A DNA stretch of 64,000 bases from Portibacter marinus (GCF_021533195.1 NZ_JAJNKB010000003.1:335001-399000); one strand, 5' to 3'; counted from the stretch's first letter, positions 21,301-37,256 are shown. Made by a program: numbers and translations. Notes: a model not told the origin generated them from the sequence alone.

Positions 21301-23753
21301 ATACCGGCTTTCAGGATTATAGTCAATTGAGTTTTAACAAAGTCATCTTCTCTAATCCGCAAGCCACTGGAATCATGAAAAATCGAAGGCCCTGGGAAGA
21401 AGATAGTACCCAAAGAACCAATACCTTCCGCAGCGTGGAATTTACCTGTAACGGTGAAACCTATGGTAATTTCTTAACGGATACTTTGATTGGTGCCCCA
21501 GGTAAGACTTATATTTTCGATGCTGACAGAAACATGGATGTTGATGCATATCTACAGATGATCGGTAATAACTGTACGCCGATAGAGATGAGGTCCTCTT
21601 CTCCTGGAACAAAGGCAAAGATGGTGATGCCATCCTCTGGAGAGGTGGTGGTTGATTTTGTGCAAATGCGAGATATTCAAGCAAGTGGTGGCGCTGATTT
21701 TAATGCCGGAGCAAGAAGTACAGATATTGCAAATAGCAATATCGGCTGGACCTTTGAGGATGCTCCTGACTTTGTCGAATCCGGATTTCTGGGACCAGAT
21801 CGTGCGCTTTGTACTGGTGAAGATTTAATCCTTGATGCCTACAGTTTTAGTCCTAATGAAAGATACAGTTGGAATGACAACAGTTCGGATTCCATCTTAA
21901 CGGTCAATATGCCGGGGACTTACTTTGTGGAGGTTGAGTTTCAATCTTCTTGCATATTACGAGATACCGTAGAAATCTTTACTGCACAGGATGTTCAAGC
22001 CATGTTGCCTGAGACCAGCAGTATTTGTCAGGGCACAGCCTTGGTTTTGGATGCAGAAGTCCCTATCGCCACAGCGGCTTACAATTGGAACACTGGAGAA
22101 TCCCAGGCGAGTATTGAAGTCTCGGAATCTGGCATCTATGTTATCAACATTGATGTTGATGGCTGTATCTCTTCCGACACTTCTTTAGTAAATGTAGTAG
22201 AAAATCCAGGCCTGGATCTGGGTGGGGATAGATCAGTTTGCGAAGATGAGATGTTTACTCTGGAGACTGATATTATTGCAGATGCCTATTTATGGCAGGA
22301 TGGAAGCACTGAACCTTCTATCACATCTGTTCTCGGGGGTTTATATCAACTCTATATAAATTATGAGAATTGTAGTTTTAGTGATAGCGTGATGATTGAT
22401 ATCACGGAAAGGCCATTGGTCAATATTTTTGGACCCAGTAGTGTTTGCAGCAACGAACAAGCGGTATTGCTTGTAAGCAATCCCAACAACTACCCGGTGA
22501 CCTGGCAAGATGGTTCCATTAATGAAAGTATAGCTATTAGCGAATCAGGTCTATACACAGTTACCTTGAGTGACAATGGTTGTACAGGAGAAGCCTCCAG
22601 GCTTGTCGAAGTTTTTGAAGCACCAACCTTAGATTTAGGAGAAGATCTCGAGGTTTGCGAAGACAGTGTGATCGTTCTGGAATCCAGCATAGATGGCATT
22701 TCATATCTATGGAGTAACGGTGACATCACTAAAAGCATTGACATACTAGCTACTACCAGTTCGACATATACGTTAAGTGTGACAAATGATCAGGGATGTG
22801 AAGCAAGTGATGAAGTAAATATTACCGTATTTGAATATCCTGAAGTGGATTTAGGTCCATTGATGCAAAACGTTTGTAATAATGAAATGCTTATTCTGAA
22901 TGCCGGACAGGAAGGCACTTGGCAAGATGGTTCTTTAGCTGAGAGTTTTGATGTTCTTGAGAATGGCACATATAGTGTTACAGTCAGCAACAATGGATGT
23001 AATACTGAGGCTTTAACCGAAATCACCTTTGTCGAAGCCCCTATGGTGGACCTGGGAGAGGACATCACAGCGTGTGAAGGTGAAGAGATCATAGTTTCTG
23101 TCCCAGAATCCTCGATGAACTTCCAGTGGGCGGACGGAAGTATAATAGCAGAACGTATCATTAACGAAGCGGGAACTTACACCTTGATTGTACAAGAGAA
23201 CGGGTGCACCGAACGGGATAGTATAGAAGTAGCATTTAACGAAACACCAGTTCTCGATCTAGGTACTGACACCACCGTATGTGATGATTTACCTTATGTG
23301 ATTTTACCCAATGTCAGGACTGATGGTGAATTGCAATGGTCAGACGGTAGTACTGCGAATTCATTTACGCTAGAATCATCTGATCAAATTTTTGCCACCC
23401 TTACCAAAGGTATTTGTTCAACTAATGACTCTATACAGGTCAACTTTAAGGAATGTGTTTACTTTGAATCGTTTATCCCTAACGCCTTCTCACCCAATCA
23501 AGACGGGATTAATGATGTAATGGAAATCTACTTTTCAGAAGGCTTGATCGTAGAGTCTTTTGATATCACGGTTTTTGATCGTTGGGGGAATCGTGTATTT
23601 AAAACCGAAGTCCTAGAGGACTACTGGGATGGCAGGTTGGACGGTCAATATTTAGATGAAGGGGTATATATGTACTTTGTCAATGTTAGCTATATTGATG
23701 ATCTTGGACCAGGGACTCAATTAATCAAAGGTGATGTGACCCTCATCAAATAA
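18396..23753 (+). CDS. Giant T9SS-secreted repeat protein with gliding-associated (CHU_C) C-terminus
   Basis: 1785 residues. The only start compatible with the signal peptide MLKTFFICISILFPILIQA is TTG at 18396; the frame has a TGA at 18354 and no intervening ATG. Three modules of about 370 residues begin with YYWVGGSGNWSDISHW (residue 22), FFWINGQGNWTDPGHW (about 390) and LYWVGDGGFWQDPLHW (about 762), each followed by SSGG and an F-D-x-N-S-F motif. Residues about 1130-1685 hold a series of Ig/PKD-like repeats, several opening with VDLGED or LDLGED plus a Cys pair and centred on W-x-DGS. The last 100 residues (FIPNAFSPNQDGINDVMEIY, then FDRWGNRVF and YWDGR) are the CHU_C-type T9SS sorting domain. 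I infer a cell-surface or secreted adhesive protein. It precedes the small T9SS/fibre module by 202 bases. Confidence 0.88.
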   Translation: MLKTFFICISILFPILIQATDYYWVGGSGNWSDISHWATTSGGNTTHAQAPGSEDNVFFDNNSFSGLNQTVTLNTDIVFCRDMNWTGVSNNPAIVGSASSTLNILGSLALSPNMDFDFQGITRFLGADMNLTVDYAGHSAGLLVIFEGNGGWQFESSVVIDSTLSLRSGTLNTNDQTITSRFLYVEGNGEKSLMLGSSVITLTGKFLDTYRFDDEDIKSLSIHVENVNIDPGTSSIIMTAKDPGFWITGTGNLSLYDVTFSSAAGRALMSNSYFENNINLNELTALSSTTFLTDFDANYLILTGGNVYEFKSGETYELENISGDGDCAQGVIMTSTENGNHTTFSVNSGSVDMAFVTLRDIHASGSASFTASQGVDLGNNNGWSFTNSMSQDFFWINGQGNWTDPGHWSFSSGGPSSGCVPSGKDNVFFDANSFNVAGQKVVIDIPNVYMHDMTWRGITNNGGMEGDLDYRIRITGSLEFDATMEHTFEGHYHFETSEAGNTIQTNGIMFNREMFFSGLTGEWTFLDDVEMVWNLNLLSGTLNTNGKKVTMRAFLSRSMVPRSLNIEESHLILRPVMFYEPSWEVENEGYQLSANGSKIEFESHHGNFGHYGYSETPVQSYDTVLFTTNEAYLSSYNWFLSEDTPALEIDHLLFRGNGYIDGSSHFREMNLAAGHHYLFDANEQRAQRVDELVTSGDCDSGLTQMFSTIRSQRARIFINQNYTLDRMHITDVQFAGATVIADNSLDGGNNLGVTFNEITARTLYWVGDGGFWQDPLHWSLSSGGPGGECVPTSIDDVIFDVNSFSIPNQQVDSYGTRYRNCHNITWTGTTNQPSFVNWFVNPTGDLTYDDSFNNYVWRTVFSGEELQTVSSGGQMFNWIELKHLGEVEFIDDLSLYLFTQTSGSFSFKDINVQTNELYFEHNVPKSASFGNSYITINGEGSFDNPPFSGFSEQVTLDAGNSTVDFTGVNTGFQDYSQLSFNKVIFSNPQATGIMKNRRPWEEDSTQRTNTFRSVEFTCNGETYGNFLTDTLIGAPGKTYIFDADRNMDVDAYLQMIGNNCTPIEMRSSSPGTKAKMVMPSSGEVVVDFVQMRDIQASGGADFNAGARSTDIANSNIGWTFEDAPDFVESGFLGPDRALCTGEDLILDAYSFSPNERYSWNDNSSDSILTVNMPGTYFVEVEFQSSCILRDTVEIFTAQDVQAMLPETSSICQGTALVLDAEVPIATAAYNWNTGESQASIEVSESGIYVINIDVDGCISSDTSLVNVVENPGLDLGGDRSVCEDEMFTLETDIIADAYLWQDGSTEPSITSVLGGLYQLYINYENCSFSDSVMIDITERPLVNIFGPSSVCSNEQAVLLVSNPNNYPVTWQDGSINESIAISESGLYTVTLSDNGCTGEASRLVEVFEAPTLDLGEDLEVCEDSVIVLESSIDGISYLWSNGDITKSIDILATTSSTYTLSVTNDQGCEASDEVNITVFEYPEVDLGPLMQNVCNNEMLILNAGQEGTWQDGSLAESFDVLENGTYSVTVSNNGCNTEALTEITFVEAPMVDLGEDITACEGEEIIVSVPESSMNFQWADGSIIAERIINEAGTYTLIVQENGCTERDSIEVAFNETPVLDLGTDTTVCDDLPYVILPNVRTDGELQWSDGSTANSFTLESSDQIFATLTKGICSTNDSIQVNFKECVYFESFIPNAFSPNQDGINDVMEIYFSEGLIVESFDITVFDRWGNRVFKTEVLEDYWDGRLDGQYLDEGVYMYFVNVSYIDDLGPGTQLIKGDVTLIK

Positions 23754-23874: not shown

Positions 23875-23893
23875 TCTACCATGAATATGGGAT
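23875..23893 (+). promoter_or_regulatory. Recurrent dyad motif, site 1 (candidate operator)
   Basis: TCTACCATGAATATGGGAT, identical over 19 bases to 31407-31425 and 15 of 17 to 36576-36592. It has imperfect dyad symmetry, TACCAT-N4-ATGGGA. It lies 62 bases upstream of the T9SS gene start, exactly 22 bases before a candidate -7 element, where an activator would bind. An ATG inside the motif could give a longer gene start, but that N-terminus lacks an export signal. Confidence 0.6.
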
Positions 23894-23895
23894 TG

Positions 23896-23922
23896 TTTGC
23901 TTTTCAGGTGTGCGTTATCTTG
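23896..23922 (+). promoter_or_regulatory. Candidate Bacteroidota promoter for the second T9SS/fibre module
   Basis: TTTG at 23896-23899 and TATCTTG at 23916-23922 with a 16-base spacer approximate the phylum's -33/-7 consensus (TTTG / TAnnTTTG). The spacer is slightly short. It sits just downstream of the dyad motif and would give a leader of roughly 25-30 bases. Confidence 0.4.
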
Positions 23923-23955
23923 AGGAAAATCCAATTATTAATAAAATCTACAGTT

Positions 23956-24447
23956 ATGAAAACCTCAAACATGTTCTATTCACTGATCATCCTACTTGTG
24001 GTTTCTGCGCAGTGTTACGCCCAAAGCGTCGTAGCTTCTGCCGGAGAAACCAGCACACCGAAACAGCTTGTGTGGAGCTGGACCCTGGGAGAAAGTGCCA
24101 TTGCAACCACGCAAAATGACCATTTACTCTTTACAGAAGGGTTTCAGCAACCTAATATTGTTGTTGAGGAGATTTTTGCGACGACCAGATCAAATGCTGA
24201 AATTTCCATCCAACCCAATCCTACAGCTGATGAAGTTACCATCCGAAGCAAGGATCTGGATATGACGACGACCACATTGTTCTTATACGATCAAAGCGGC
24301 CGAAGAAATATGATAAGAGCTGAGCAAACTCTGACGAATGAGATGAAGATAAATTTAAGCAATTTACCCTCTGGCATCTATCTCCTCCACTTAATGGATC
24401 AAGAGGCCCAATTGCTGCATACTTCAAAGATTATTAAAACCAATTGA
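23956..24447 (+). CDS. Small secreted protein with T9SS type A sorting domain (second copy of module)
   Basis: 163 residues from the ATG at 23956. That start gives a proper signal peptide (MKTSNMFYSLIILLVVSAQ, then CYAQ), whereas the longer frame from 23881 puts 25 unrelated residues ahead of it. The mid-section has LVWSWTLGESAIATTQNDH and LLFTEGFQQP, the same pattern as the protein at 10842-11369. The T9SS type A tail runs from ISIQPNPTADEVTI to LPSGIYLLHLMD with a basic end. It is followed after 25 bases by the 897-residue fibre gene, repeating the layout at 7780-11369. It should be exported to the surface and may be attached there. Confidence 0.85.
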   Translation: MKTSNMFYSLIILLVVSAQCYAQSVVASAGETSTPKQLVWSWTLGESAIATTQNDHLLFTEGFQQPNIVVEEIFATTRSNAEISIQPNPTADEVTIRSKDLDMTTTTLFLYDQSGRRNMIRAEQTLTNEMKINLSNLPSGIYLLHLMDQEAQLLHTSKIIKTN

Positions 24448-24472
24448 TTCTAAACCTCAAAACTTTTTTACA

Positions 24473-27166
24473 ATGAAAAATATAATTCGAACACTAGTAA
24501 TACTATTATTGACCACAATTACCATTTACGGACAGAAAGGTCCCAAAGGCATGAACTACCAGGCTGTTGTCAGAAGTCTTGATGGTCAGGTGATGGCCCA
24601 AAAAAACATTGACCTAAAAATTACCTTATACTCAGGCCAGGCAAGGACTGCAGTATATACCGAAGAACACCATCTTTCAAGTAATCGTCTTGGACAGATA
24701 TCGCTGGTCATCGGTGAAGGTGCAAGCCGAAGTGGTACGCTTGAAAGAGTACCATGGGCCAACGATGACATCTGGATGTCGGTTGAATTCAAAACCAACA
24801 CTATGAAAGGATATGCAGCTTTAAGTGATACAAAGTTGCTTGCTGTTCCTTATGCCTACCATGCTGTTACCGCTGAACAGTTGACACGTAAATACCGTTC
24901 TCAGGATGACGGTGTGCCTTCCAATACCTGGTCTCTTTTTGGAAATTCCAACGTGAATGATCAAAAGGATAGGTTGGGGACTACAGATATGGCGGACCTA
25001 GTTTTGATCACTAACAATGTGGAGCGAATGAGAATACTAGAGAGTGGAGATATTTCGATCGAAAACAATCTCGGAATAGGTGCTGACCTGGATATAGCTA
25101 ATGATCTGAACGTAGGCAATAATTTGGATGTGGGACAAAATGTCAATTTGAATACCAGCGGTGGTTCGACTACAGTCAATGGTGATCTCGATGTGGCTAA
25201 TATGAGTTCTACAGTTCTGACCGGGACTCTGAACGTTCAGAAGAACTCGGATTTGGATGCTGATTTGAATGTAGATGGGAACAGTACTTTGGTAGGTACA
25301 TTAAATGTTAACGGAGATACAGATTTGGATTCAGATTTAAATGTAGATGGTAATTCGACTTTGGTGGGTTCTCTGAACACGCAAGGTGATACGGACTTAG
25401 ATGGCATGCTCAATGTGGATGGGGCCACTGAATTAAATAGTAATTTAACTGTGACTGGAATGAGTTCTACTTTATTGACAGGGACTTTAAATGTCAATAA
25501 GAATACCACAATAGATGAGGATCTTACTGTAGGAGGAACGACAAGTTTCAACGGTGATCTGGATGTGGGTGGTGCATCTACTTTGAATAGTTTGACAGTA
25601 GAAGGAGATTCGGAATTACAGGGGACACTAGATGTGGATGGAGCTTCGACTTTAAAGAGTACCTTAAATGTGATGGGAAATACGGTCCTGGATTCGGATT
25701 TGAATGTGATGGGGAATACAGGATTAGCTGCTGATCTTGTTGTAGATGGAGCAAGCACCCTAAACAGTAACTTAACCGTGGCAGGGATGTCAACGACTAC
25801 CTTAACTGGAGATCTTAACGTAAATAAGAATTCAAATTTGGATGGTACTTTAAATGTGGATGGAGCCACAACACTAGGAGGATCGCTGGACGTCGATGGT
25901 GATGCAACTTTCAATTCCGATTTAGAAACTTCAGGTGAAATAGCTGCTGCTTCCGCAAAATTTGAAGGGCCGGCAATCTATACTATATCTAATAAGAAGT
26001 TTGTAGCTCACATTAATAATACTGATGATTCAGATGATGGAACCAATGGTCTCGCCATCCAAATCGGTACCACTTCAGACTTTCATAATAGTGGAGAAAA
26101 CGATTATGTCAGTTTTTTTAATGGTAATGGAACATTGACCGGAGCAATTGAAGGTTTTGAGCTTGGGACAGACGATCCTTTAAGTACCTATAATGATGTA
26201 TTTCCTTTTTCATTTAAAGACTTTTTCAGTTTAGGATCTTTTACGGGTAGTTTCTTTAGTCCAGCTGATCTACCAGATAATGTACTTTCATTCTCGGAAG
26301 GAAGTCTTTCATTTGATTTTCCTTTTATTGGAGACGGTGATGTAAATTTTGTAAAGCCAAACTTGGCTAAGAACTTTAGCAACTTTGTTGGAGGATCATT
26401 CAATCCTATCGAATTATTGACTGATTTTGCTCCATTAAGTCCATCAGGTGAAGATAAGTTAAAGGAACTAATTTGCTGGGCACTTGGAAATGGGTTAGAA
26501 TCGCTGATTACAACCAATCCATTTGATCTTGCTTTGGCTGCTACTATTATTCAAGCCACTCAAGAGTGCAAAGAAGGTAGCGAAGGAGGTGTCACTTATG
26601 TTTCATTTGGTGCTGACTATGCAGAATGGCTACCTCGTGCAGATATCAACGAGGGTATGAAAAATGGGATGATTGTTGGTGTTACCAATGGTAAAATTTC
26701 TCGTCAGACAGAAGGCGCAGATCAGATTCTCGCTATTTCCACTAATCCAATTGTACTTGGAAACAAACCCATACCAGGTAAAGAAGCTGAATACGAAAAA
26801 ATTGCATTTATGGGTCAGGTGCCTGTCTTAACGAGAGGTAAAGTGGAAATTGGGGACTACATCCTACCGTCCGGAAGAAATGATGGATTCGGACGCGCTG
26901 TTAAACCTGAAGATTTGCAAATTTCCGATTTAACCCAAATTGTAGGAAGGGCTTGGAGTGCTTCACAGAATGAGTGGATGGGTTATGTCAATGTTGCTAT
27001 TGGACTTAATCGTAATGACGTTGCTAAAATCGTTGCTAAGCAGCAAGAAGATTTACTTGCACTAAAAGATGAAATCTCTGACCTAAAGCAAGGCTTGCAA
27101 AGTCAGATTAGTGATCTAAGTGCGAAGATAGACAAGAATAGAAGGCCAATTGAAATAGCAGAATAA
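24473..27166 (+). CDS. 897-residue fibre-like surface protein with long tandem repeats
   Basis: Signal peptide (LLLTTITIYGQ), N-terminal domain KGMNYQAVVRSLDGQVMAQ to LLAVPYAYHAVTAEQL (about 24-140), then about 265 residues (nt 25140-25935) of short imperfect repeats of the form LNVDGNSTLVG, LDVDGASTL, LNVNKNS, with a 9- to 18-residue rhythm that predicts a beta-helical or trimeric fibre. After a Phe/Ser-rich stretch, ADYAEWLP (about residue 716) starts the module shared with the 1021-residue protein: GMIVGVTNGKISRQ, IAFMGQVPVLTRGKVEIGDY and FGRAVKPEDL. It ends with a coiled coil (residues about 845-890). The cysteine-rich C-terminal extension of the paralogue is absent. No T9SS tail, so export to the surface may depend on another route or on the small partner. 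A terminator follows at 27191. Confidence 0.82.
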   Translation: MKNIIRTLVILLLTTITIYGQKGPKGMNYQAVVRSLDGQVMAQKNIDLKITLYSGQARTAVYTEEHHLSSNRLGQISLVIGEGASRSGTLERVPWANDDIWMSVEFKTNTMKGYAALSDTKLLAVPYAYHAVTAEQLTRKYRSQDDGVPSNTWSLFGNSNVNDQKDRLGTTDMADLVLITNNVERMRILESGDISIENNLGIGADLDIANDLNVGNNLDVGQNVNLNTSGGSTTVNGDLDVANMSSTVLTGTLNVQKNSDLDADLNVDGNSTLVGTLNVNGDTDLDSDLNVDGNSTLVGSLNTQGDTDLDGMLNVDGATELNSNLTVTGMSSTLLTGTLNVNKNTTIDEDLTVGGTTSFNGDLDVGGASTLNSLTVEGDSELQGTLDVDGASTLKSTLNVMGNTVLDSDLNVMGNTGLAADLVVDGASTLNSNLTVAGMSTTTLTGDLNVNKNSNLDGTLNVDGATTLGGSLDVDGDATFNSDLETSGEIAAASAKFEGPAIYTISNKKFVAHINNTDDSDDGTNGLAIQIGTTSDFHNSGENDYVSFFNGNGTLTGAIEGFELGTDDPLSTYNDVFPFSFKDFFSLGSFTGSFFSPADLPDNVLSFSEGSLSFDFPFIGDGDVNFVKPNLAKNFSNFVGGSFNPIELLTDFAPLSPSGEDKLKELICWALGNGLESLITTNPFDLALAATIIQATQECKEGSEGGVTYVSFGADYAEWLPRADINEGMKNGMIVGVTNGKISRQTEGADQILAISTNPIVLGNKPIPGKEAEYEKIAFMGQVPVLTRGKVEIGDYILPSGRNDGFGRAVKPEDLQISDLTQIVGRAWSASQNEWMGYVNVAIGLNRNDVAKIVAKQQEDLLALKDEISDLKQGLQSQISDLSAKIDKNRRPIEIAE

Positions 27167-27190
27167 GACATCATATAGTAGGTTGGAAAA

Positions 27191-27219
27191 AAAAAGAGAC
27201 TGCCAGACAGTCTCTTTTT
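27191..27219. terminator. Bidirectional intrinsic terminator
   Basis: AAAAAGAGACTG, loop CCAGA, CAGTCTCTTTTT: a perfect 12-bp stem with A-run and T-run flanks, between two convergent genes. Confidence 0.9.
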
Positions 27220-27231
27220 CAATAATTAATT

Positions 27232-27816
27232 TCACAATCTAAATTTGGCGTCCTTTATGACGATGGTTTCGGGTTCATTATAATCGAAAACAGGTTGTTC
27301 ACATCGTTGTAATTTTCCATCACTAGTATAATTACACCACCTCCTGGTCAGTTTTATCTGAAAGTGACCTTCTACAACGCTCGAATCAAGTGATATATAG
27401 TCGAACCTGATGAAATTTTCAAAATCGGGGGTGACGATAAGTGAATCGTATCTTGAGGAAGTAACAACTTCTTCGAATGCACCATAATGGAAATAAGCAG
27501 AGGTTGAATCTATAATCTGTTTATCAAAACTGATTTTAAGTTCATGTAATTCTAGCTGAAAATCCAGCAAATTACATTCATTGTATCTTACTAAACCTAT
27601 TGATCCAACAGGTTGATCATTCTCATGCCTATAACCAAAATAGCCTGCATCAAACTCTGCTTTTTCTCCATTATATATTGATTTTGCACAAAAATCTTCT
27701 TCAAAAAATATTGCTTCTTCATCATACCCCATCGTATCGCAAATTGCAGGTATTCTGTCTTCTTTGGAACACGCGAATAACAATACTAATATTATTAAAT
27801 AAGTAAATCTATTCAT
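27232..27816 (-). CDS. Lipoprotein of unknown function
   Basis: 194 residues from the ATG at 27816 (MNRFTYLIILVLLFACSKED); the frame extends 34 codons further upstream but only this start gives a signal peptide with lipobox LFAC. I recognise no family. The mature protein is acidic, with cysteines at ICDTMGYDEE, DFCAKS, NECNLLD, RRWCNYTS and QRCEQP, and looks beta-rich. It probably sits in the outer or inner membrane facing the periplasm. It lies downstream of the broken metalloprotease in the same orientation, separated by 46 bases, so they may share a transcript. Confidence 0.7.
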   Translation of the reverse strand: MNRFTYLIILVLLFACSKEDRIPAICDTMGYDEEAIFFEEDFCAKSIYNGEKAEFDAGYFGYRHENDQPVGSIGLVRYNECNLLDFQLELHELKISFDKQIIDSTSAYFHYGAFEEVVTSSRYDSLIVTPDFENFIRFDYISLDSSVVEGHFQIKLTRRWCNYTSDGKLQRCEQPVFDYNEPETIVIKDAKFRL

Positions 27817-27862
27817 TAAATTGTATTTGTGAATATGTCTCAAACCGATTGTAGTTTTAAAT

Positions 27863-29756
27863 TTAAAGTGTGACAAAATGTATTGATTTAATGTAATCTT
27901 TGCTTCTAACCGTAACATGTTTCAATCCAGTTGTAAGATTTTCAACATTAACCTTTAAATTATATTTACCTTTTCTATAATACTTATTCTTTCTTATGAC
28001 TTTCTCCAAACTTCCATATTGGTTATAGATATAGACAGAGAGATCCAAGTCCAAAGGTATTTCAAGTTTTAAAGTCATTTCATTTGATACTATCGGATTT
28101 GGAAATACCTCAATGCCCAATGCTTTTCGGATTTCTCCAGTATTCTCTGAAAGGGTAACAGATTCTATTTTCTCAGAATAATAAATAGATTCTTGTTCAT
28201 TTTGAACTGACTTGACCTCAGTCACTGTCTGTCCATTTGAGAAACTCGCAATTAGCCGTATAAAAATAGTTGGAGCATCATCTTTAGGTGGAAAAGTACT
28301 ACCATTTACTACAAGATCACTACTATTTGAGCCAATATTATAATAAGTCCAACCATCCTGACTCCATGACCATTGATAATTGGTAATTATTTCATTGCAT
28401 GTATTTCCTGTCCAAGTATAGGTCTGCCCTTCATCGTATATTGTAGAAGGTCCGTCAATTGTAAGTGCAACAGGATCATCGCCAGTTTCATAATCATCAA
28501 TTCTCCAAGCCGCCAATCTTAATTGCCTTGCATTGTCCCTACTATTATTTTCTCCGGTACTTTCATTATTAAAAAAAATAGTTGGATTAGCAAAATTTTG
28601 GATTCTATTAACTGGACCATTCACCATAATTGTTGCATTATCATTAGCTAAAAGATTCCCTCGGGCATAAAAATTTAAGTTCTCCACCCCACCGTCTCTA
28701 TTATCATTATCATGTTTGCACCCGAAATTATGTGCAATTTCATGCACAAAGACAAATCTGTTTAAATTTACTCCTATTTGTACTATAGCATGAGCTTCTG
28801 CGCTATCATCATTATTGTGTACGAAAGCCGCTCCTTCTATTCCATCAAAAAAAGGACTATCTGTTAATAGTACGACTAGGTCTGCATTTTCATTATCTCT
28901 GATATTCTCAGAGCTATTGTATTTTGTGCAATTGCATCTCTCATGGCAATAATATTATCAGCTCCGGGAGTGAGAGAATTAGGATTAGCTCTATCAATTT
29001 GATCACTGACACCGTTAAATAATTGAGCATCTGCTAAGTCAAATGTCAGCTGTTCTGCATTAATTCCACTATTTCGTAGAGCTTGGTTCGCTTGATTGAT
29101 ATACGTTATTGCTGCTTGATTACCATCTTGAATGTTATTTGCAGCGGTGGTAAATAAAACTAAAACTCTTACATTTCTAGGACATGAAAAATTTCTTTGG
29201 TAACTAGTTCCCTCTGAATTTCCTTTCATACCATCGTGATCAGTATTATGGTTAGCGCATCGGTAGCCTTTTGTTAATTCATTATTTTTCTCAATAAGAA
29301 TACTTATCCTGTTTCCATTCTTTGAAGTTAAAGATTTACCTAAATCTTCTATCACAAAAGATCTTTCGCCAACATTGATATTACCAAATAATGCTCCTTC
29401 TACCTCTGCAAGTGAAACTGTTCCTACATTAATATTTTGCCTGTCTACGACTTCTCCTTGCCACTCATAATTATTAATATCATCTACTTTGACATATTTA
29501 GATTGAGCTTTATAAACAGAATTATCATTTGGGATTCTAAAACTAAAGTTTCCATTTGAACTAATAATGGAATTAATACTATTAATATTTATCCTATTTA
29601 CACTTAAATTTAGAGAACTAGATGTACGAAGTTCTAATTTCTCTTCGATGTCAGCGTTGACTTTCATAGGGTTATTATCCATCGTAAACAGTCCTTGACA
29701 AAAATATTAATGGATAAAAATAAGGCGGTAAATGACGTAATTAAAATACGTTTTTG
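27863..29756 (-). pseudogene. M12B-like (reprolysin) metalloprotease with T9SS tail, interrupted by two frameshifts
   Basis: Three adjacent pieces on the minus strand add up to one secreted protease. A signal peptide (KRILITSFTALFLSINIF) reads from about 29751 to 29700. The propeptide and first part of the catalytic domain are in another frame (29682-28876, including RVLVLFTTAANNIQDGN). The remainder (about 28905-27863) begins NSSENIRDNENADLVVLLTD and contains VHEIAHNFGCKHDN, the HExxHxxGxxH-D metzincin zinc site at about 28712-28747. The C-terminus (GIEVFPNPIVSNEMTLKLEI onward) is a T9SS type A tail. One missing T in the T5 run at 29700-29704 and one missing A in the A4 run at 28922-28925 would join all three. 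It is either a recent pseudogene or two assembly errors. No usable in-frame ATG was found ahead of the signal peptide: the nearest (29765) is followed at once by TGA. Confidence 0.72.
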
Positions 29757-30123
29757 ATATCACATAAATCTTTTGTAATAAAGTTTTTCCTACTTCTTTT
29801 TATAGTAGTTTTTCAGTTTGCAATATTGCATTCCTACTATGGTTTCTAAAGGAGATTCTTCTAATGAAGAGTAATTAGACAAATTTGACCTAAACAAAAA
29901 TTAAATTGATTAGATTGCTCGCATCCTAGTTCAATTTAAGAATATTTATGAATTTTGCAAATTTTAGCTCATAAAATTTATTTTTCTATCACCTTTGTCC
30001 TTAAATTCCTTGTAATCAAGAGCTATTTATGTGCTAATAAGATTATTGAAACACGTATGTGAATTGCATATTTTTTTAGGAAGTACAAAATTCTTTACAT
30101 TTAAGTGAAGAATTACAGGACTT
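29757..30123. other. AT-rich divergent intergenic region
   Basis: About 370 very AT-rich bases between the metalloprotease and the class V aminotransferase gene, which diverge. It presumably carries both promoters. A TACATTTA at about 30097-30104 is a weak -7 candidate for the rightward gene. No open frame, repeat or RNA structure stands out. Confidence 0.5.
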
Positions 30124-31398
30124 ATGACCAACCGCAGAAATTTCTTAAAACACACTTCGAGAGCAGCGATGGTGCTGCCCTTCATTAAATTAGAGCGTAA
30201 AGCTATAGGCTTAAATGCACTAAATACTGCAAAGCTCGAAGACGATGACTATTGGAATTTGGTCCGGAAGCAATTTCCGCTAAAAGAAGGCCAAACCTAC
30301 TTCAACAACGGCACCATGGGACCGCCATCCAGCTACGTTCTGTATAAAATGATGGAGCACATGATGCATTATGCTAAAGAGGCAGCTACCATTGACTATA
30401 AGAATGGTTCGGGTCCGGCGCTTTTAAGTGGTTATTTCCCTTGCGTGGAGTTAAGAGAAAAATTGGGAGCAATTATTAACTGCGATTACAAGGAAATTTC
30501 ATTGACCCAAAACGCAACCCATGGAATGAATTTCGTGGGAAACGGTTTGGATCTCAGGGAGGGCGACGAATTGATCAATACCAATCAGGAGCATGGTGGT
30601 GGCTTTGGTGCCTGGCAATTGCTGGCTAAGAGAAAAGGTTGTATCTACAAGCAGGCAGTGATGCCAGAACCGGCGAATGATCCTCAGGAAATTATTGATG
30701 CGATCTTTAAGGAAGTTACGCCACGAACAAAGGTCATTGCAGTTCCACACATCATTTCTGTTTATGGTACAGTGATGCCAGTGAAAGAAATATGTGCCGA
30801 AGCTCGTAGAAGAGGCATCTTCACCGTTCTGGATGGGGCGCAATGCGTCGGACATGTCAAAGTTGACGTTAAGGATATCGGATGTGATGCTTATTACTCA
30901 AGTCTACATAAGTGGTTATTGGCTCCCGCTGGCAGTGGTTTACTGTATATCAATAAAGATGTGGTGGGAGATATTTGGACTACTCTAGCGAGCTATAACT
31001 GGGATAATGAAGAAGATCATGGTTTTAGGTTGATGCAATCCGGGACAGGTAATCCGGCGCAGATGGTTGGATATGAGGCAGCCGTTGATTTTTTTAATAC
31101 GATCGGGGAAGAAAAGTGGTTGAGCAGAATTCATGAATTGGGTGCATATCTTCGCGAAGGTTTAAAGTCCATGAACCATGTAACCATTCATTCTTCGACT
31201 AATGAGAACATGGCCGCTGGAATCACGACTTATTCTGTGGAGGGCCTGACCGGGCCTGAACTTCAGAAAACAATGTGGGAAAAGGAACGATTGCAACCTC
31301 GATCTGTAGGGCAGGAATTCCTACGGCATTCTACACATATCTATAATTCTAAAGCAGAAATAGACAAGGCTTTAGAGGTCTTAGCAGATCTTGCTTAG
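30124..31398 (+). CDS. Tat-exported class V aminotransferase-fold protein (isopenicillin-N-epimerase/SufS-like)
   Basis: 424 residues. The N-terminus MTNRRNFLKHTSRAAMVLPF carries a twin-arginine motif (RRNFLK), so a folded, cofactor-loaded protein is probably exported. The PLP fold of class V aminotransferases is visible: YFNNGTMGPPS, SLTQNATHGMNFV, AVPHIISVYGTVMP, TVLDGAQCVGHVKVDV (the PLP-contacting Asp) and the Schiff-base lysine in YYSSLHKWLLAPAGSG. Family members include cysteine desulfurases and isopenicillin-N epimerases; the catalytic cysteine loop of desulfurases is not apparent, so the reaction is unknown. It stands 81 bases upstream of the YadA/S74 fibre gene, but the intervening dyad motif suggests a separate promoter for that gene. 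Confidence 0.85.
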   Translation: MTNRRNFLKHTSRAAMVLPFIKLERKAIGLNALNTAKLEDDDYWNLVRKQFPLKEGQTYFNNGTMGPPSSYVLYKMMEHMMHYAKEAATIDYKNGSGPALLSGYFPCVELREKLGAIINCDYKEISLTQNATHGMNFVGNGLDLREGDELINTNQEHGGGFGAWQLLAKRKGCIYKQAVMPEPANDPQEIIDAIFKEVTPRTKVIAVPHIISVYGTVMPVKEICAEARRRGIFTVLDGAQCVGHVKVDVKDIGCDAYYSSLHKWLLAPAGSGLLYINKDVVGDIWTTLASYNWDNEEDHGFRLMQSGTGNPAQMVGYEAAVDFFNTIGEEKWLSRIHELGAYLREGLKSMNHVTIHSSTNENMAAGITTYSVEGLTGPELQKTMWEKERLQPRSVGQEFLRHSTHIYNSKAEIDKALEVLADLA

Positions 31399-31406
31399 TG
31401 AATTCG

Positions 31407-31425
31407 TCTACCATGAATATGGGAT
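31407..31425 (+). promoter_or_regulatory. Recurrent dyad motif, site 2 (candidate operator)
   Basis: Identical over 19 bases to site 1 (23875-23893). Again 22 bases separate its end from a candidate -7 box, TAAATTAG at 31448-31455. It is 54 bases upstream of the ATG of the YadA/S74 fibre gene and 8 bases past the preceding stop codon. Confidence 0.6.
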
Positions 31426-31479
31426 GGTATAGGTGGTCAATGTTTCGTAAATTAGAGGTTCACTCTAAAATACAATCAG

Positions 31480-33492
31480 ATGAACTACCTAAAAATTTCA
31501 GTGATTTTACTATTAGGCTTCAGTGCCATCACCTTAGGAGCCCAACAAGTGATCATTTCCGAAGACGCGAATCCTAGTGGTCACCCTTCAGCCATTCTCG
31601 ATATTCAGTCTGATGATAAAGGACTGCTGATTCCCAGAGTGACCACTGCTGTAAGAGATACTATGAATTCAGCGCCTGATGGAATGTTGGTCTTCGATAC
31701 TGATCTGGGAGCGCTTTTCTGTAAGTCTGGAGGAGCGTGGGAGAAGTTGGAGATGCCGAATAATGTATTTGAGAAAGTAGTGGATACTATAAGACAAACG
31801 CAGGGTTATCTCAACAGTGATTTTGTAATTGGATCTCCCACTCTCGATCATCAGGATAATCCCGACTACTACAACAGGTTGTTTTTTGATAAATCCAAAG
31901 CTGCATTTAGAGTAGGATTTGAATATGGAAATGAATGGAAGGATGACAGCATTGGTATACATTCTTTTGCAGCTGGCTCACTGTCCAGAGCTTCCGGATC
32001 TGCAAGTACAGCGTTTGGATCGGATACTAGAGCAGTAGGAGATTACAGTACTGCACTAGGGACTGGAACTCTTGCAAGTGGAAATCAGAGCCTTAGTTAC
32101 GGTTCTTCATCAAAAGCTTCCGGAAACTATTCTACAGCGGGTGGTTGGCTAACCGAAGCCAGTGGAGAAGCTAGTGTAGCATTCGGAGAGAGCAGCAAAG
32201 CCAGTAATTTACATAGTTTTGCAGCAGGAAAGAGTTCAATAGCTTCAGGAGTTCAGAGCACTGCATTCGGCAACTCTACTACAGCATCAGGTGCGGTAAG
32301 TACTGCTTTTGGAACTTCTACGCAAGCTATCGGCGAATCTAGCGTAGCCTTTGGAAATGAGAGTCAAGCCAACGGATTGAATAGTGCGTCCTTCGGATTT
32401 CAGAGCATTGCCTCCGGAGATCAATCCTTTGCTGGTGGGAATCAATCCATAGCATCAGGTATCAATAGTTTCGCACACGGGGAAAATGCAAAAGCCACAG
32501 GTGATCATAGTTTCGCTCATGGATTTGGTGCTGAAGCGAATGCGTTTGCGAGTTCGTCATTGGGATTTTCTACACTTGCCAACACACCTAATGCTACTGC
32601 TGTGGGCACGCATAACGATCCAATCTTTGACCCTCTTGAATTCTGCTCAGATTGTCCTATTTTTATGGTGGGAAACGGATTGCCTGGCATGCCAGGTTTT
32701 CCACCCCAACCTGATATTCCTGAAATTAGATCGAATGCTCTGACGGTATATAGTAGTGGTTGGACTGCATTAGGAAACATAACTCCCACTGAGCAACTTC
32801 ACATTACTGAAAATATGCAAGCGGATGGTAAGATTACCATAGGTTCCGGAAGTTATTCCGGCCTTTCTTCTAGCAAGCTAGACATCTATGACGGTAATAT
32901 TACGATTTCTGAAGGCAAGGGTCTATTTACGCTTAATAATACAGGTACCATTATATCAAGAGTTCAATATATCAGCCAGCAACTTAGATTCCAGGCCGGA
33001 ACAGGTACACTACCAGATATGATCTTGACCGATGCTGGAAGACTCGGAATCGGAGAATTTGTTGACCCAACCGCGAAATTACAGGTGGGATTAAATGGAG
33101 ACGGTACTTTTGCATTGGCCAATGCCTGGAACACCTTCTCAGACAGAAGATACAAACATAACATATTGCCCATCGGTAGCGCGCTGTCTATGATCTTGAA
33201 CATGAATGGCAGAAGATTTACCTGGAATACTTCCGGTAAAAAAGACATCGGATTCATTGCACAAGAATTAGAAGAAATAATACCGGAAGTGGTAAGAACT
33301 GCAGAAGACGGATACAAATCAGTAGATTATGCTCGAATTAATGCGGTCCTCGTAGAAGCGCTAAAAGAACAACAGAAAATGATCGAAGATTTACGGAAAA
33401 TAAATGACCTGCATTCCCACAAACTAGAAGAGCAAGAGAAAAAAATGAACGAATTGAATCGTCAAGTACGACTTTTGATGAAAAGCAACTGA
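31480..33492 (+). CDS. Trimeric fibre protein with YadA-type head repeats and Peptidase S74 intramolecular chaperone
   Basis: 670 residues with a signal peptide (LGFSAITLGAQ). The entry domain includes ANPSGHPSAILDIQSDDKGL and LIPRVT, typical of Bacteroidota fibre proteins. Residues about 160-360 are 14-residue head repeats of the form A-x-G-x-x-S-x-A-x-G (for example RASGSASTAFGSDTRAVGDY), the left-handed beta-roll of YadA-type trimeric adhesins. The C-terminus is a Peptidase S74 domain: SDRRYKHNILPIGSAL with the catalytic Ser-Asp dyad, FTWNTSGKKDIGFIAQELEE, VDYARINAVLVEALKEQQ, then a coiled coil. In phage endosialidases this domain drives trimerisation and cleaves itself off. I infer a surface-exposed trimeric fibre. 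A strong terminator follows, and the dyad motif precedes it. Confidence 0.88.
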   Translation: MNYLKISVILLLGFSAITLGAQQVIISEDANPSGHPSAILDIQSDDKGLLIPRVTTAVRDTMNSAPDGMLVFDTDLGALFCKSGGAWEKLEMPNNVFEKVVDTIRQTQGYLNSDFVIGSPTLDHQDNPDYYNRLFFDKSKAAFRVGFEYGNEWKDDSIGIHSFAAGSLSRASGSASTAFGSDTRAVGDYSTALGTGTLASGNQSLSYGSSSKASGNYSTAGGWLTEASGEASVAFGESSKASNLHSFAAGKSSIASGVQSTAFGNSTTASGAVSTAFGTSTQAIGESSVAFGNESQANGLNSASFGFQSIASGDQSFAGGNQSIASGINSFAHGENAKATGDHSFAHGFGAEANAFASSSLGFSTLANTPNATAVGTHNDPIFDPLEFCSDCPIFMVGNGLPGMPGFPPQPDIPEIRSNALTVYSSGWTALGNITPTEQLHITENMQADGKITIGSGSYSGLSSSKLDIYDGNITISEGKGLFTLNNTGTIISRVQYISQQLRFQAGTGTLPDMILTDAGRLGIGEFVDPTAKLQVGLNGDGTFALANAWNTFSDRRYKHNILPIGSALSMILNMNGRRFTWNTSGKKDIGFIAQELEEIIPEVVRTAEDGYKSVDYARINAVLVEALKEQQKMIEDLRKINDLHSHKLEEQEKKMNELNRQVRLLMKSN

Positions 33493-33520
33493 ATCTGCAA
33501 AATTTTCATGGTGTGTTAAA

Positions 33521-33560
33521 GGGCATGACTCTTCACCTCGAAGTGTTGTGCCCGATTTTT
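33521..33560 (+). terminator. Intrinsic terminator after the YadA/S74 gene
   Basis: GGGCATGACTCTTC, loop ACCTC, GAAGTGTTGTGCCC: a 14-position stem with one T-T mismatch and two G-U pairs, followed by GATTTTTT. It separates the fibre gene from the sensor kinase gene 40 bases downstream. Confidence 0.85.
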
Positions 33561-33593
33561 TCCGTTTTATCAAGGGAAGTACTATTTTAAAGT

Positions 33594-36575
33594 ATGCGGA
33601 AGCAGATATTACTGATAATAACCATTTTTAATCTTTCCTTGACCGCTCAACAGAGTTTTGATTACTTCAATATCAATCCTGAAATGGGTCTGTCGAATAG
33701 GAAAGTATCTTTTGCTACTCGAGACGCAAATCAATTTCTTTGGATTGTTAATTCTGATATCGAATATTTCGATGGTCACCGCTTTATTCGCTACACAAAG
33801 TCAGACCCCAATCATTATATACCACTTACTAACCTCAACTCTGCCTTCACTTTAGGAGATACGGCGCTTTTAGCTACTAATGGTAAAGAGATGATGCAGT
33901 TTTCTTTTAAAACCAGAAAGTCCAAAATGGTGGAATTACCATTCTCTGACCAATTGGATTCTTTTTCTGTAACCAAAATGTATAAAGCTCCAGACTCTGA
34001 CTATAAAGTTGTTTTTATTGATAATTCAGAGAAAATCAAAGCCCTGGTCTACAATAAAAACTGGGATCTAATCTCAAGTTTTATTGCTGAATCGAACAGT
34101 TGGATTCATATCCATCTCACTCGTTCTTTCGCGCTGTCCAATAATGGGCAACTATACGTAAAAGATGAAGAAAACGAAAAAATCTTGGTGATTGACCATG
34201 ACCAATCAGTTTCATATCACTTTCCTTCACCTGGTGAAACTTTAGACTATCATCTTAGAATAGTTGCCCACCCAAGATTTGGACCACTAATCATTCATTC
34301 TTATGGAAAGATATATGCGCTAAACAATGATCAAAAATTTGAAGAGTTATTGGAATTTTCCAAGAGACCCATTGACATAAAAACCTCGCACCTTAAAAAG
34401 GATAATCAATTGCTCATATTCTTTCAAGGTGGACTGTACAATATCAACACTGTTAATTGGCAGTATACCGTCTACAGCGGCAAGGTTTTCGAAGGAAAAA
34501 GCCCGGACATTTACTACACTTTCGACGACGGTGAAAGCATTACATGGCTTTGTACTGAGTTAGGACTGATTAAAACCAATCTGATGTTAAATCCTTTCTT
34601 TGCTACCACCTATGCCGAGAAGGATGAGCAAAATATTCAATATAGAGAAATTTTTGAACTAGGAAAAGACAGCATCGTAGCACGCCTGGCAGACAGGAAG
34701 AGACATCTGGTAAAATTTATTTTCAATGAAAATGGCACCGTTGATACCACACACTTGTTCAATGATGTGAAAGGAAACAGTCTCTTGAACAGATATGGCG
34801 ACTATTTGGTCTTGACCCCCAGGGAGTCCAAAACGATTAAATATTATAACTTGAATGACAACAGTCTCACAACGAAGCGCATTCCTGAAGAAACCTCTTC
34901 AAGTTTCAGGAATCTTTCAACGATAAAAGAGGATACTCTTCATTATTTTACTGCAGAACATGATATCATAAAGTTCAATTTGAAGAATAGCGGTTATTCC
35001 AAATTGGAGATAAAGGAAAAACCACCGAAGAATACCTATTACAGTAAGTTTGTAGAATATCTAGATGGTAAATATATCTATGGAGGCATCTATGGACTTT
35101 TTGTGCAAAATGCCAGCACCGGAGAATTGATGTACAAAGTAACACAGGAAACTTTTCCGGAACTTTTAAGTACCTATTTTAACTGCCTGGCAATAGATCA
35201 GAGTATTTATTGGCTGGGAACACTGGGAGGCGGATTGTGTAAAATAGACACCGATAATAATGAGCTTAAGATTTATTCTACTCAGAACGGATTACCTGAC
35301 GATTTCATAGCTTCCATTGAAATCGATCATGATGGATATCTGTGGATAGGAACTTACAACGGTCTGGTAAGATTAAATCCTGAAGAGGAGCAGTTTCATA
35401 CTTTCACCAAGGAGGATGGTCTTCCAGACAATGAATTTAACTACCTCTCATCTTTATACACTGAATCCGGCGATATGTACTTTGGTACCTTTAATGGTCT
35501 TGTTAAATTTAGACCTGATCAGATATTCAGTGAAAATCAGCTGCCCGAGGTTATCATCAATTCAGTTTCACGCTATAACAGAATCAGCGACAGCTCGGTG
35601 CACCAGCTGGCACATTTAAAAACAATTGACAAAACTGAAATATATCCCAGTGACAATTATATAGACCTGGAATTTTCGGTACCAAGTTATATAGGAATTG
35701 GTAACTTTAATTATGAAGTTAGATTAAGTGATCTAGAGGAGCAGTGGCAGAATATTGGTGAAAACGCTAGTATACGATATCAAAAGCTTCCGGCTGGTCA
35801 TTACGATTTTCAGGTTAGAGCACGGGACTCAAAGGGTCGAAGATCCCCTCATTATACTACCTTGGGTATTGAAGTTTTGCAGCCTTTTTATAAAGCGTGG
35901 TGGTTTCTGTTATTGGTTTTTTCTTCAGCGACCGTGTTGATCTATTTATTATATCGGTACAGAATTAATCTGATCCGTAAAGAATCTGAAACCAGAACGA
36001 GAATCGCAGCTGACCTTCACGATGAAATAGGAAGTTCGATGACTAGAATATCGATGCAGCTACAGTTATTAGAACCATCAATAGGCGATCCGCATAGGAG
36101 CACCATTCAAAAGTTGAATAAAGTAGTGGATCTTTCTATAAATAAAGTACGAGATTTAGTGTGGTCCATTGACATGAGCAGTGACACCTGGCAGGATATG
36201 ATCGATCGAATGGAAGATTATGCCTATGACACCTTGGCACCTGCAGAGATTGCATTCATATTGAATACAGAAAATATTGCACCCTCTAAAGAACTCAAAC
36301 CGGTGGTCAAGAGGAATCTATTCTTGATTTTCAAGGAGGCCATCAATAATATTGCAAAGCATTCCAATGGTCATGAGGCACAAGTGCTTTTGAGAAATGA
36401 TAGAGGTAAATTTACCATGGAAATTTCTGACAATGGTAGTAGTGAACAGAGTCTAAACGGTGGACATGGGATGCAAACAATGAAAATGAGGGCCGGCAAA
36501 ATGCATGGAACCTTAGAAATCAGGTCTGGAATTGAAGGTTTCACCGTTATCTTGACACTTGAAAAATCCATTTAG
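33594..36575 (+). CDS. Two-component sensor histidine kinase with periplasmic beta-propeller and Y_Y_Y domain
   Basis: 993 residues: signal peptide (LSLTAQ), a periplasmic propeller built of weak repeats ending with FIASIEIDHDGYLWIGTYNG and LVKFRPDQIF, a Y_Y_Y domain (about 690-760, with NFNYEVRLSDLEEQWQNIG and YDFQVRARDSKG), one transmembrane helix (AWWFLLLVFSSATVLIYLLY, about 763-783), a HisKA_3 dimerisation domain with ADLHDEIGSSMTRISMQ (phospho-acceptor His809) and a HATPase with NLFLIFKEAINNIAKHS and GGHGMQTMKMRAG. This is the NarL-partner kinase type. The response regulator gene follows 54 bases later, with a dyad motif in between. The periplasmic ligand is unknown. In this phylum such sensors often read polysaccharide fragments, but no SusCD pair is adjacent. 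Confidence 0.92.
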   Translation: MRKQILLIITIFNLSLTAQQSFDYFNINPEMGLSNRKVSFATRDANQFLWIVNSDIEYFDGHRFIRYTKSDPNHYIPLTNLNSAFTLGDTALLATNGKEMMQFSFKTRKSKMVELPFSDQLDSFSVTKMYKAPDSDYKVVFIDNSEKIKALVYNKNWDLISSFIAESNSWIHIHLTRSFALSNNGQLYVKDEENEKILVIDHDQSVSYHFPSPGETLDYHLRIVAHPRFGPLIIHSYGKIYALNNDQKFEELLEFSKRPIDIKTSHLKKDNQLLIFFQGGLYNINTVNWQYTVYSGKVFEGKSPDIYYTFDDGESITWLCTELGLIKTNLMLNPFFATTYAEKDEQNIQYREIFELGKDSIVARLADRKRHLVKFIFNENGTVDTTHLFNDVKGNSLLNRYGDYLVLTPRESKTIKYYNLNDNSLTTKRIPEETSSSFRNLSTIKEDTLHYFTAEHDIIKFNLKNSGYSKLEIKEKPPKNTYYSKFVEYLDGKYIYGGIYGLFVQNASTGELMYKVTQETFPELLSTYFNCLAIDQSIYWLGTLGGGLCKIDTDNNELKIYSTQNGLPDDFIASIEIDHDGYLWIGTYNGLVRLNPEEEQFHTFTKEDGLPDNEFNYLSSLYTESGDMYFGTFNGLVKFRPDQIFSENQLPEVIINSVSRYNRISDSSVHQLAHLKTIDKTEIYPSDNYIDLEFSVPSYIGIGNFNYEVRLSDLEEQWQNIGENASIRYQKLPAGHYDFQVRARDSKGRRSPHYTTLGIEVLQPFYKAWWFLLLVFSSATVLIYLLYRYRINLIRKESETRTRIAADLHDEIGSSMTRISMQLQLLEPSIGDPHRSTIQKLNKVVDLSINKVRDLVWSIDMSSDTWQDMIDRMEDYAYDTLAPAEIAFILNTENIAPSKELKPVVKRNLFLIFKEAINNIAKHSNGHEAQVLLRNDRGKFTMEISDNGSSEQSLNGGHGMQTMKMRAGKMHGTLEIRSGIEGFTVILTLEKSI

Positions 36576-36592
36576 TACCATGTTTATGGGAT
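36576..36592 (+). promoter_or_regulatory. Recurrent dyad motif, site 3 (candidate autoregulatory operator)
   Basis: TACCATGTTTATGGGAT matches sites 1 and 2 at 15 of 17 positions; the two differences fall in the central spacer, leaving the dyad arms unchanged. It starts immediately after the kinase stop codon and is 37 bases upstream of the response regulator start. No clear -7 element is found at the 22-base spacing seen for the other two sites. Confidence 0.5.
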
Positions 36593-36629
36593 ACCTTATT
36601 TAAATTTTTATTCTCACTTTTACCTATAG

Positions 36630-37256
36630 ATGAAAGATATAAAAATTGCAATGGTTGAAGATGACCCGCACATCCGTGCTCTGGTCAGTCAATACCTCAA
36701 TCAGCAGGATCACTTGCAATGTCTGATATTGGCATCATCTGTAGAGGAATTCTTTGAAACAGTTTCACCGAAAGCTCAAATTGACGTGCTAATTCAGGAC
36801 ATCAGCTTACCCGGCATAAGTGGTCTTGAAGCCATACATAAAATAAAAAATAAATTCCCCAATACAGAGATCCTCATGTTTACGATTCACGATGATGCCT
36901 CGCGGGTTTTTAAGGCATTAAGTGCTGGTGCTTCCGGATATCTCTTAAAGAATACTAAACTCGAGCAGATTAAAAAAGCGATCATTGATATCAATAATGG
37001 AAAAGCGGCAATGTCTCCTTCAGTCGCTAAGAAAGTCATCAATTATTTCCGGCCCAAGCCCAATAAAGATGTTCTGACTGATAAAGAAACCCAGGTCGTC
37101 CAGTTGTTAGCCGATGGTCTGTCTTATAAGATGATTGCTGACCGTTTGCAAATTAAATTTCAGACTGTCCAGTCTCACATTAAGAATATTTACAAGAAGC
37201 TCCATGTACATTCGAAAGCTGAAGTGATTTCTAAGCATTTGAGAGGGGAATTATAA
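36630..37256 (+). CDS. LuxR/NarL-family response regulator
   Basis: 208 residues. Receiver domain at 1-120: acidic pocket in MVEDDPHIRAL, phospho-acceptor Asp57 in LIQDISLPGISG, the Thr of MFTIHDD and Lys of YLLKNTKL. LuxR-type helix-turn-helix at about 143-205: LTDKETQVVQLLADGLSYK, MIADRLQIKFQTVQSHIKNI, YKKLHVHSKAEV. It is the natural partner of the upstream NarL-type kinase. Such regulators dimerise on dyad-symmetric sites, which is why the TACCAT-N4-ATGGGA motif found here and upstream of two surface-protein genes is a reasonable candidate target. That link is inference. Confidence 0.93.
   Translation: MKDIKIAMVEDDPHIRALVSQYLNQQDHLQCLILASSVEEFFETVSPKAQIDVLIQDISLPGISGLEAIHKIKNKFPNTEILMFTIHDDASRVFKALSAGASGYLLKNTKLEQIKKAIIDINNGKAAMSPSVAKKVINYFRPKPNKDVLTDKETQVVQLLADGLSYKMIADRLQIKFQTVQSHIKNIYKKLHVHSKAEVISKHLRGEL

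Follow-up and report, generated by a model that had tools for sequence, protein, structure and literature searches.

What reads a short inverted repeat that stands upstream of two sets of surface-protein genes and of a transcriptional regulator, and to what effect? The three copies lie in a stretch of 64,000 nucleotides from Portibacter marinus (GCF_021533195.1, NZ_JAJNKB010000003.1:335001-399000; hereafter the window, in whose coordinates positions are given). They precede a gene pair for a type IX secretion system (T9SS) substrate and a fibre, a gene for a YadA/S74 fibre, and the gene for a NarL/LuxR-family response regulator (36630-37256), which follows a sensor kinase gene. A preliminary description of the window had proposed that they define a small regulon with autoregulation. 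The comparisons below indicate that the three dyads are probably operators of the neighbouring regulator, which would activate the fibre genes and its own gene as a class II activator.

The dyads and their genomic distribution

The three candidate operators are:
23877-23892 (within the 19-mer 23875-23893), + strand: candidate operator 1, TACCATGAATATGGGA, intergenic, 5' of the T9SS-tail/fibre pair
31409-31424 (within the 19-mer 31407-31425), + strand: candidate operator 2, TACCATGAATATGGGA, 5' of the YadA/S74 fibre gene
36576-36591, + strand: candidate operator 3, TACCATGTTTATGGGA, 5' of the regulator gene, from the first base after the kinase stop codon

The 19-mer TCTACCATGAATATGGGAT occurs identically at 23875-23893 and 31407-31425, and TACCATGTTTATGGGAT at 36576-36592, all on the + strand and exact to the base as first described. 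Comparison of the three sites also bore out that the arms are kept and that only the spacer differs in the third. Operator 3 starts immediately past the end of the kinase gene, which allows the regulator a promoter of its own.

In the whole 5.19-Mb genome, TACCATN4ATGGGA occurred five times with no mismatch. Both copies outside the window (C21:3632 and C44:186640; L, G and C numbers are our labels for loci, genomes and contigs) fall within open reading frames. The exact motif is not distributed at random inside and outside genes, as the only three intergenic copies are those of the window locus, all on the coding (+) strand, spanning at most 12.7 kb and each 38-63 bases 5' of a start codon. 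A search for the dyad with a -7 box (see below) at the right distance gave four exact matches genome-wide, of which two were window sites and the remaining two were not before any gene in the right direction. In the P. marinus genome, the regulon appears to be local. The gene just before operator 1 (18396-23753, a 1785-residue giant CHU_C T9SS protein) has no dyad of the window type upstream.

A genome-wide regulon of one-mismatch sites was considered and rejected. Allowing one mismatch gave 47 matches, near the chance level set by the reversed control pattern (39), and of the 25 matches inspected almost all were intragenic. These results give no sign of a large regulon built on the exact operator, and we claim no further targets.

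A related motif before related regulators

No close orthologue of the window regulator was found among 60 relatives (best identity 53%), and we therefore collected 104 non-redundant related regulators from these relatives and a named genome scan. Most are 36-53% identical to the window regulator; the set spans the Bacteroidota/Ignavibacteriota/Calditrichota group, and many of the loci come from metagenome-assembled genomes. The exact motif TACCATN4ATGGGA was absent from 20 regulator neighbourhoods (in relatives and at the second copy in the same genome), so the operator was sought de novo for each regulator. The perfect dyad TACCATN4ATGGTA also gave no matches in the loci examined to that point.

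De novo palindromic motif finding in the 110 nt upstream of each of the 104 regulators recovered the motif ATCCCATnnnnATGGGAT with a log-likelihood gain of 300. Five dinucleotide shuffles reached 41-52, and five sets drawn from the other genes of these loci 53-75. Examples are ATCCCATGTTCATGGGAT (L139, Marinilabiliaceae), ATCCCATGAATATGGGAT (L138, Bacteroidales) and, from the family of P. marinus itself, ATCCCATGAATATGGCAT (L073), while a second operator class has CCC arms, such as TTACCCAATTGGGTGA (L182, Flavobacteriaceae). Culturable relatives with the CCC variant include Altibacter and Aequorivita (L207 and L191). At the regulator loci the motif density was 0.48 per kb in intergenic and 0.031 per kb in coding DNA, and column-permuted motifs gave 0-6 intergenic matches compared to 83 for the true motif. 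A plain dyad-plus-box score that ignored the bases distinguished regulator promoters from those of other genes only weakly, whereas the base-specific motif separated them.

One group of orthologous regulators that neighbour FabH carries ACCCCATN4ATGGGGT just past the kinase gene (L065:13637, L067:6576 and L069:6263). Similar sites lie elsewhere in some genomes (G022:C83, G022:C433, G003:C126 and G025:C213), and this group probably has a regulon with distant targets.

Promoter geometry

Candidate core promoter elements of the window are:
23916-23923, + strand: candidate -7 box TATCTTGA, 23 nt past the operator 1 16-mer
31448-31455, + strand: candidate -7 box TAAATTAG, 23 nt past the operator 2 16-mer
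36615-36622, + strand: weak candidate -7 box CACTTTTA, 23 nt past operator 3

The distance of 22 bases originally given for the two identical sites was confirmed, as measured between the 19-mer and the boxes at 23916 and 31448; it equals 23 when counted from the 16-mer, as is done below. A box was called where four or more of the six fixed positions of TAnnTTTG agreed, and the window boxes are imperfect, with 4, 5 and 4 of these positions at sites 1, 2 and 3. The end of the operator 1 dyad abuts a TTG (23893-23895) that fits a -33 element; the -7 box follows this TTG after 20 nt.

The same geometry recurred in the related loci. A -7 box was present at a gap of 23 in 35 of 50 regulator promoters (0-10 at other distances), and in 37 of 61 promoters of other genes at these loci (0-12 at other distances). 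The latter set is independent of motif building, as the motif was built from regulator promoters alone. Of 119 sites, 49 have a TTG precisely 23 nt ahead of the -7 box, where it overlaps the edge of the dyad. The gap-23 peak in two independent sets, with TTG 23 nt upstream of the box, matches the constant spacing, close to the core promoter on its upstream side, of the activator site in class II activator-dependent promoters. Since TAnnTTTG lies at -12 to -5 in Flavobacterium (PMC9723704), the dyad would lie at -51 to -36, with its centre at -43.5.

In 19 regulators (including L137, L139, L140, L142-L145, L147-L149, L151 and L153) the 18-mer begins exactly 52 nt before the ATG, so that transcription is predicted to start at the ATG itself, giving a leaderless mRNA. 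For the window regulator, we infer a start about 3 nt before the ATG.

Neighbouring targets in relatives

The motif also marks genes beside the regulators. Genes with a T9SS tail, called with a profile trained on the P. marinus genome alone, were 4-fold enriched among the targets (12 of 60, compared to 42 of 728 other genes; p = 0.00035), and kinases made up 11 of the 60 targets compared to 65 of the 728 other genes (p = 0.036). Pfam or NCBIfam models identified T9SS tails among the targets at L134, L136, L138, L141, L157, L190, L204, L205, L206 and L209, and OmpA domains at L142, L153, L163 and L198.

Paralogous systems and operator classes

Among the five HisKA_3 kinases encoded in the P. 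marinus genome, two have the same long form, the window kinase and one from contig C22, which are 27.6% identical across 471 residues, part of the sensor among them. Each adjoins one of the two best-scoring S74 fibres in the genome. In the second set (L078:9309-15127, G000 C22) the kinase gene is divergent from a fibre-regulator operon that has its own operator; here the fibre promoter contains the dyad AACCCAATCGGGTT and a perfect -7 box, TATTTTTG, 23 nt away, as in the window. A counterpart in the same genus (L129:6110-11991, G002) has TCACCCTCTAGGGTGA at the same distance, and at L130 (G001) TCACCCTnTTTCGCTAT is common to the regulator and a fibre-like gene close by. Each system seems to have its own operator.

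The operator type (CAT or CCC arms) mostly tracks the regulator clade. Those regulators within the CAT clade that have CCC operators (L077, L078 and L129) carry the CCC-class residues at positions 157 (L) and 199 (A). This shift of residues with operator type suggests that the regulator itself reads the dyad.

A second family of dyads, mostly TCACCCN4GGGTGA, was observed in the P. marinus genome (G000) at six places, all intergenic, with no match for the reversed control:
C3:52847, C11:40872, C33:92315, C33:431563, C61:59372 and C63:246033: second dyad family (L304, L305, L307-L310)
Its TAnnTT box is one base nearer than in the window, and downstream of most copies are genes for a LytTR protein, a TPR protein and secreted proteins. 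This family looks like the dispersed regulon of another regulator.

Genes of the locus

The genes around the three dyads, with domains assigned by domain search, are:
23956-24447, + strand: secreted protein of 163 amino acids with a C-terminal type IX secretion domain (Por_Secre_tail)
24473-27166, + strand: repetitive fibre protein of 897 amino acids, after a gap of 25 nt
31480-33492, + strand: fibre of 670 amino acids with YadA-head repeats and a C-terminal Peptidase_S74 chaperone
33521-33561, + strand: terminator-like hairpin with a T-run (z -4.2), between fibre and kinase
33594-36575, + strand: sensor kinase of 993 amino acids with Reg_prop propeller, Y_Y_Y, HisKA_3 and HATPase domains
36630-37256, + strand: NarL/LuxR-family response regulator with REC and GerE domains, the proposed operator-binding protein

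Gene starts were set mechanically; that listed for the first gene (23881) falls within the motif, and a plausible start, which gives the product a signal peptide, lies at 23956. Its product has a T9SS sorting domain (PF18962, 46.2 bits against a cut-off of 27; TIGR04183, 40.3 against 23). The second gene is probably co-transcribed with the first, which it trails by 25 bases, so the three sites would control about four genes. Its product scored below the cut-off for a mosaic adhesive trimer (MAT) N-terminal domain (NF053851, 35 bits against 60). The 670-residue fibre has an S74 domain (PF13884, 56.2 bits against 22) in which SDRRYK fits the SDxxxK motif; YadA_head repeats are present, but NCBIfam autotransporter scores were far under the cut-off for a full-length autotransporter.

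A cognate-type HisKA_3 kinase (40.7 bits, H-box DLHDEIG) adjoins the regulator. Its sensor propeller weakly matches the model of the T9SS protein PorZ (34.8 bits, cut-off 260). The regulator has the domains of the NarL/FixJ family (Response_reg, 84.4 bits; GerE, 63.0 bits), and the closest solved structures are VraR, NarL and DesR. It is not NarL itself (NF007935, 119 bits against an equivalog cut-off of 250). On the - strand, between the fibre pair and an aminotransferase gene, are two adjacent open reading frames of 228 and 294 amino acids (27232-28747), neither with a Pfam match.

Mechanism and alternative explanations

How might the system work? The propeller-sensor kinase would sense a signal and phosphorylate the regulator, a dimer of which would bind the dyad, with its centre near -43.5, directly upstream of the -33 element and partly overlapping it. 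The bound regulator would then recruit RNA polymerase as a class II activator. It is predicted to act on the T9SS-tail/fibre genes (23956-27166), the gene for the YadA/S74 fibre (31480-33492) and its own gene, which would produce positive feedback and co-expression of the fibres.

The same operators and regulator could instead serve repression, with negative autoregulation holding the fibres off until a signal arrives. Autorepression is common in two-component systems, and in many sites the dyad reaches the -33 TTG, where occlusion of polymerase is conceivable. However, the usual place of a repressor site is over or downstream of the core promoter, whereas these dyads lie upstream of the promoter at a fixed distance from the -7 box, and the core boxes in the window are imperfect, as in an activator-dependent arrangement; we consider repression unlikely. 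It is also rather doubtful that the dyads are bound in trans by a second NarL-family or LytTR protein, with the neighbouring regulator merely another target. Although the genome has further LuxR-type regulators, and the TCACCCN4GGGTGA family stands at six intergenic places of its own, in one case ahead of a LytTR gene, the window operator type adjoins its cognate regulator in many distant genomes, and the three exact intergenic sites all lie around this kinase-regulator pair. Moreover, the arm type largely follows the regulator clade, and two residue positions change in parallel in the exceptions. Lastly, the three sites might have arisen by chance or by duplication of an intergenic block, with no regulatory function, and the perfect 19-nt identity of sites 1 and 2 is what one would expect of a recent copy. 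Yet the flanks are not alike beyond the motif, the arms are kept at site 3 where the spacer differs, and motif and spacing are conserved across phyla, all of which make this explanation extremely improbable. Chance or a dispersed repeat was rejected on the de novo motif score, the gap-23 peak and the test on neighbouring promoters.

Several observations weigh against activation by the neighbouring regulator. The comparison turned up no direct orthologue of the locus, and the nearest regulator (G022, 53% identity) has a weak upstream dyad. About 40% of the regulator relatives are without a clear dyad, and the related sequences are not independent of one another, so that the motif statistics are somewhat inflated. 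In addition, the -7 box of site 3 is poor. We nonetheless favour activation by the product of 36630-37256. The small regulon with autoregulation of the preliminary description is supported by the confinement of intergenic exact copies to this locus and by the conservation of motif and promoter spacing before related regulator genes and their neighbours, with the regulatory link itself predicted from sequence. Its breadth was underestimated: the operator type is common to a broad family of regulators and not to this locus alone.

The occurrence of this landing-site design before related regulators and their secreted-protein neighbours probably reflects a widespread, undescribed wiring from sensor to surface protein. 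In its most general form, which seems to us evenly poised between right and wrong, propeller-sensor/NarL-type systems in Bacteroidota and neighbouring phyla would each place a private operator at a single fixed position in the promoters of their own regulator and of adjacent secreted or fibre genes. Each sensor would thus drive its own surface protein with positive feedback, often from a regulator mRNA that begins at the ATG and so lacks a leader, and CAT or CCC arms would insulate paralogues. To our knowledge, few direct transcription-factor operators for surface adhesins or T9SS substrates are known outside a handful of model Bacteroidota. The consensus (ATCCCATN4ATGGGAT, 22 nt, TAnnTTTG) would allow the targets of many uncharacterised sensor-regulator pairs to be read from sequence, and offers a simple reporter route to the signal that drives environmental Saprospiraceae to display surface fibres.

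Comparison with known systems

No prior description of the operator, its geometry or the S74/T9SS link was found in the literature searched, which covered few subscription journals, and this absence is no proof. The nearest functional precedent in Bacteroidota is FimS/FimR of Porphyromonas gingivalis, a LuxR-type two-component system that has a small regulon and binds upstream of fimbrial genes (PMC2637884). A kinase and a LuxR-family regulator govern surface appendages there and are predicted to do so here, but FimS/FimR controls fimbriae whereas the predicted targets here are fibres and a T9SS substrate. A published FimR operator was not found in the same literature.

The window regulator has the REC and GerE architecture in common with those of NarX/NarL, VraSR and DesKR, and its HisKA_3 kinase is related to NarQ, UhpB and MctS. 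Unlike NarX/NarL, VraSR and DesKR, the window system has a large Reg_prop/Y_Y_Y propeller as its sensor, with fibres and T9SS substrates as its predicted targets. NarL recognises 7-2-7 operators with the heptamer consensus TACYYMT. The window half-sites, TACCATG and TCCCATA, do not conform to this consensus, with positions 5-6 of the first misfitting.

Bdellovibrio MAT fibres are S74-terminated, trimeric and on the surface, and no link to a regulator of the window kind was noticed in the part of that report consulted (PMC10769870). The start of the 897-residue protein (24473-27166) is MAT-N-like, with its 35 bits under the curated 60-bit cut-off. Predatory Saprospiraceae exist, so a role for this protein in prey or surface contact is conceivable.

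Two-component control is also tied to type IX secretion in Bacteroidota through PorX/PorY-SigP. PorX does not belong to the GerE-type DNA-binding regulators, and PorXY reaches the secretion machine through an ECF sigma factor. In contrast, the NarL-type regulator of the window appears to act directly on the substrate genes.

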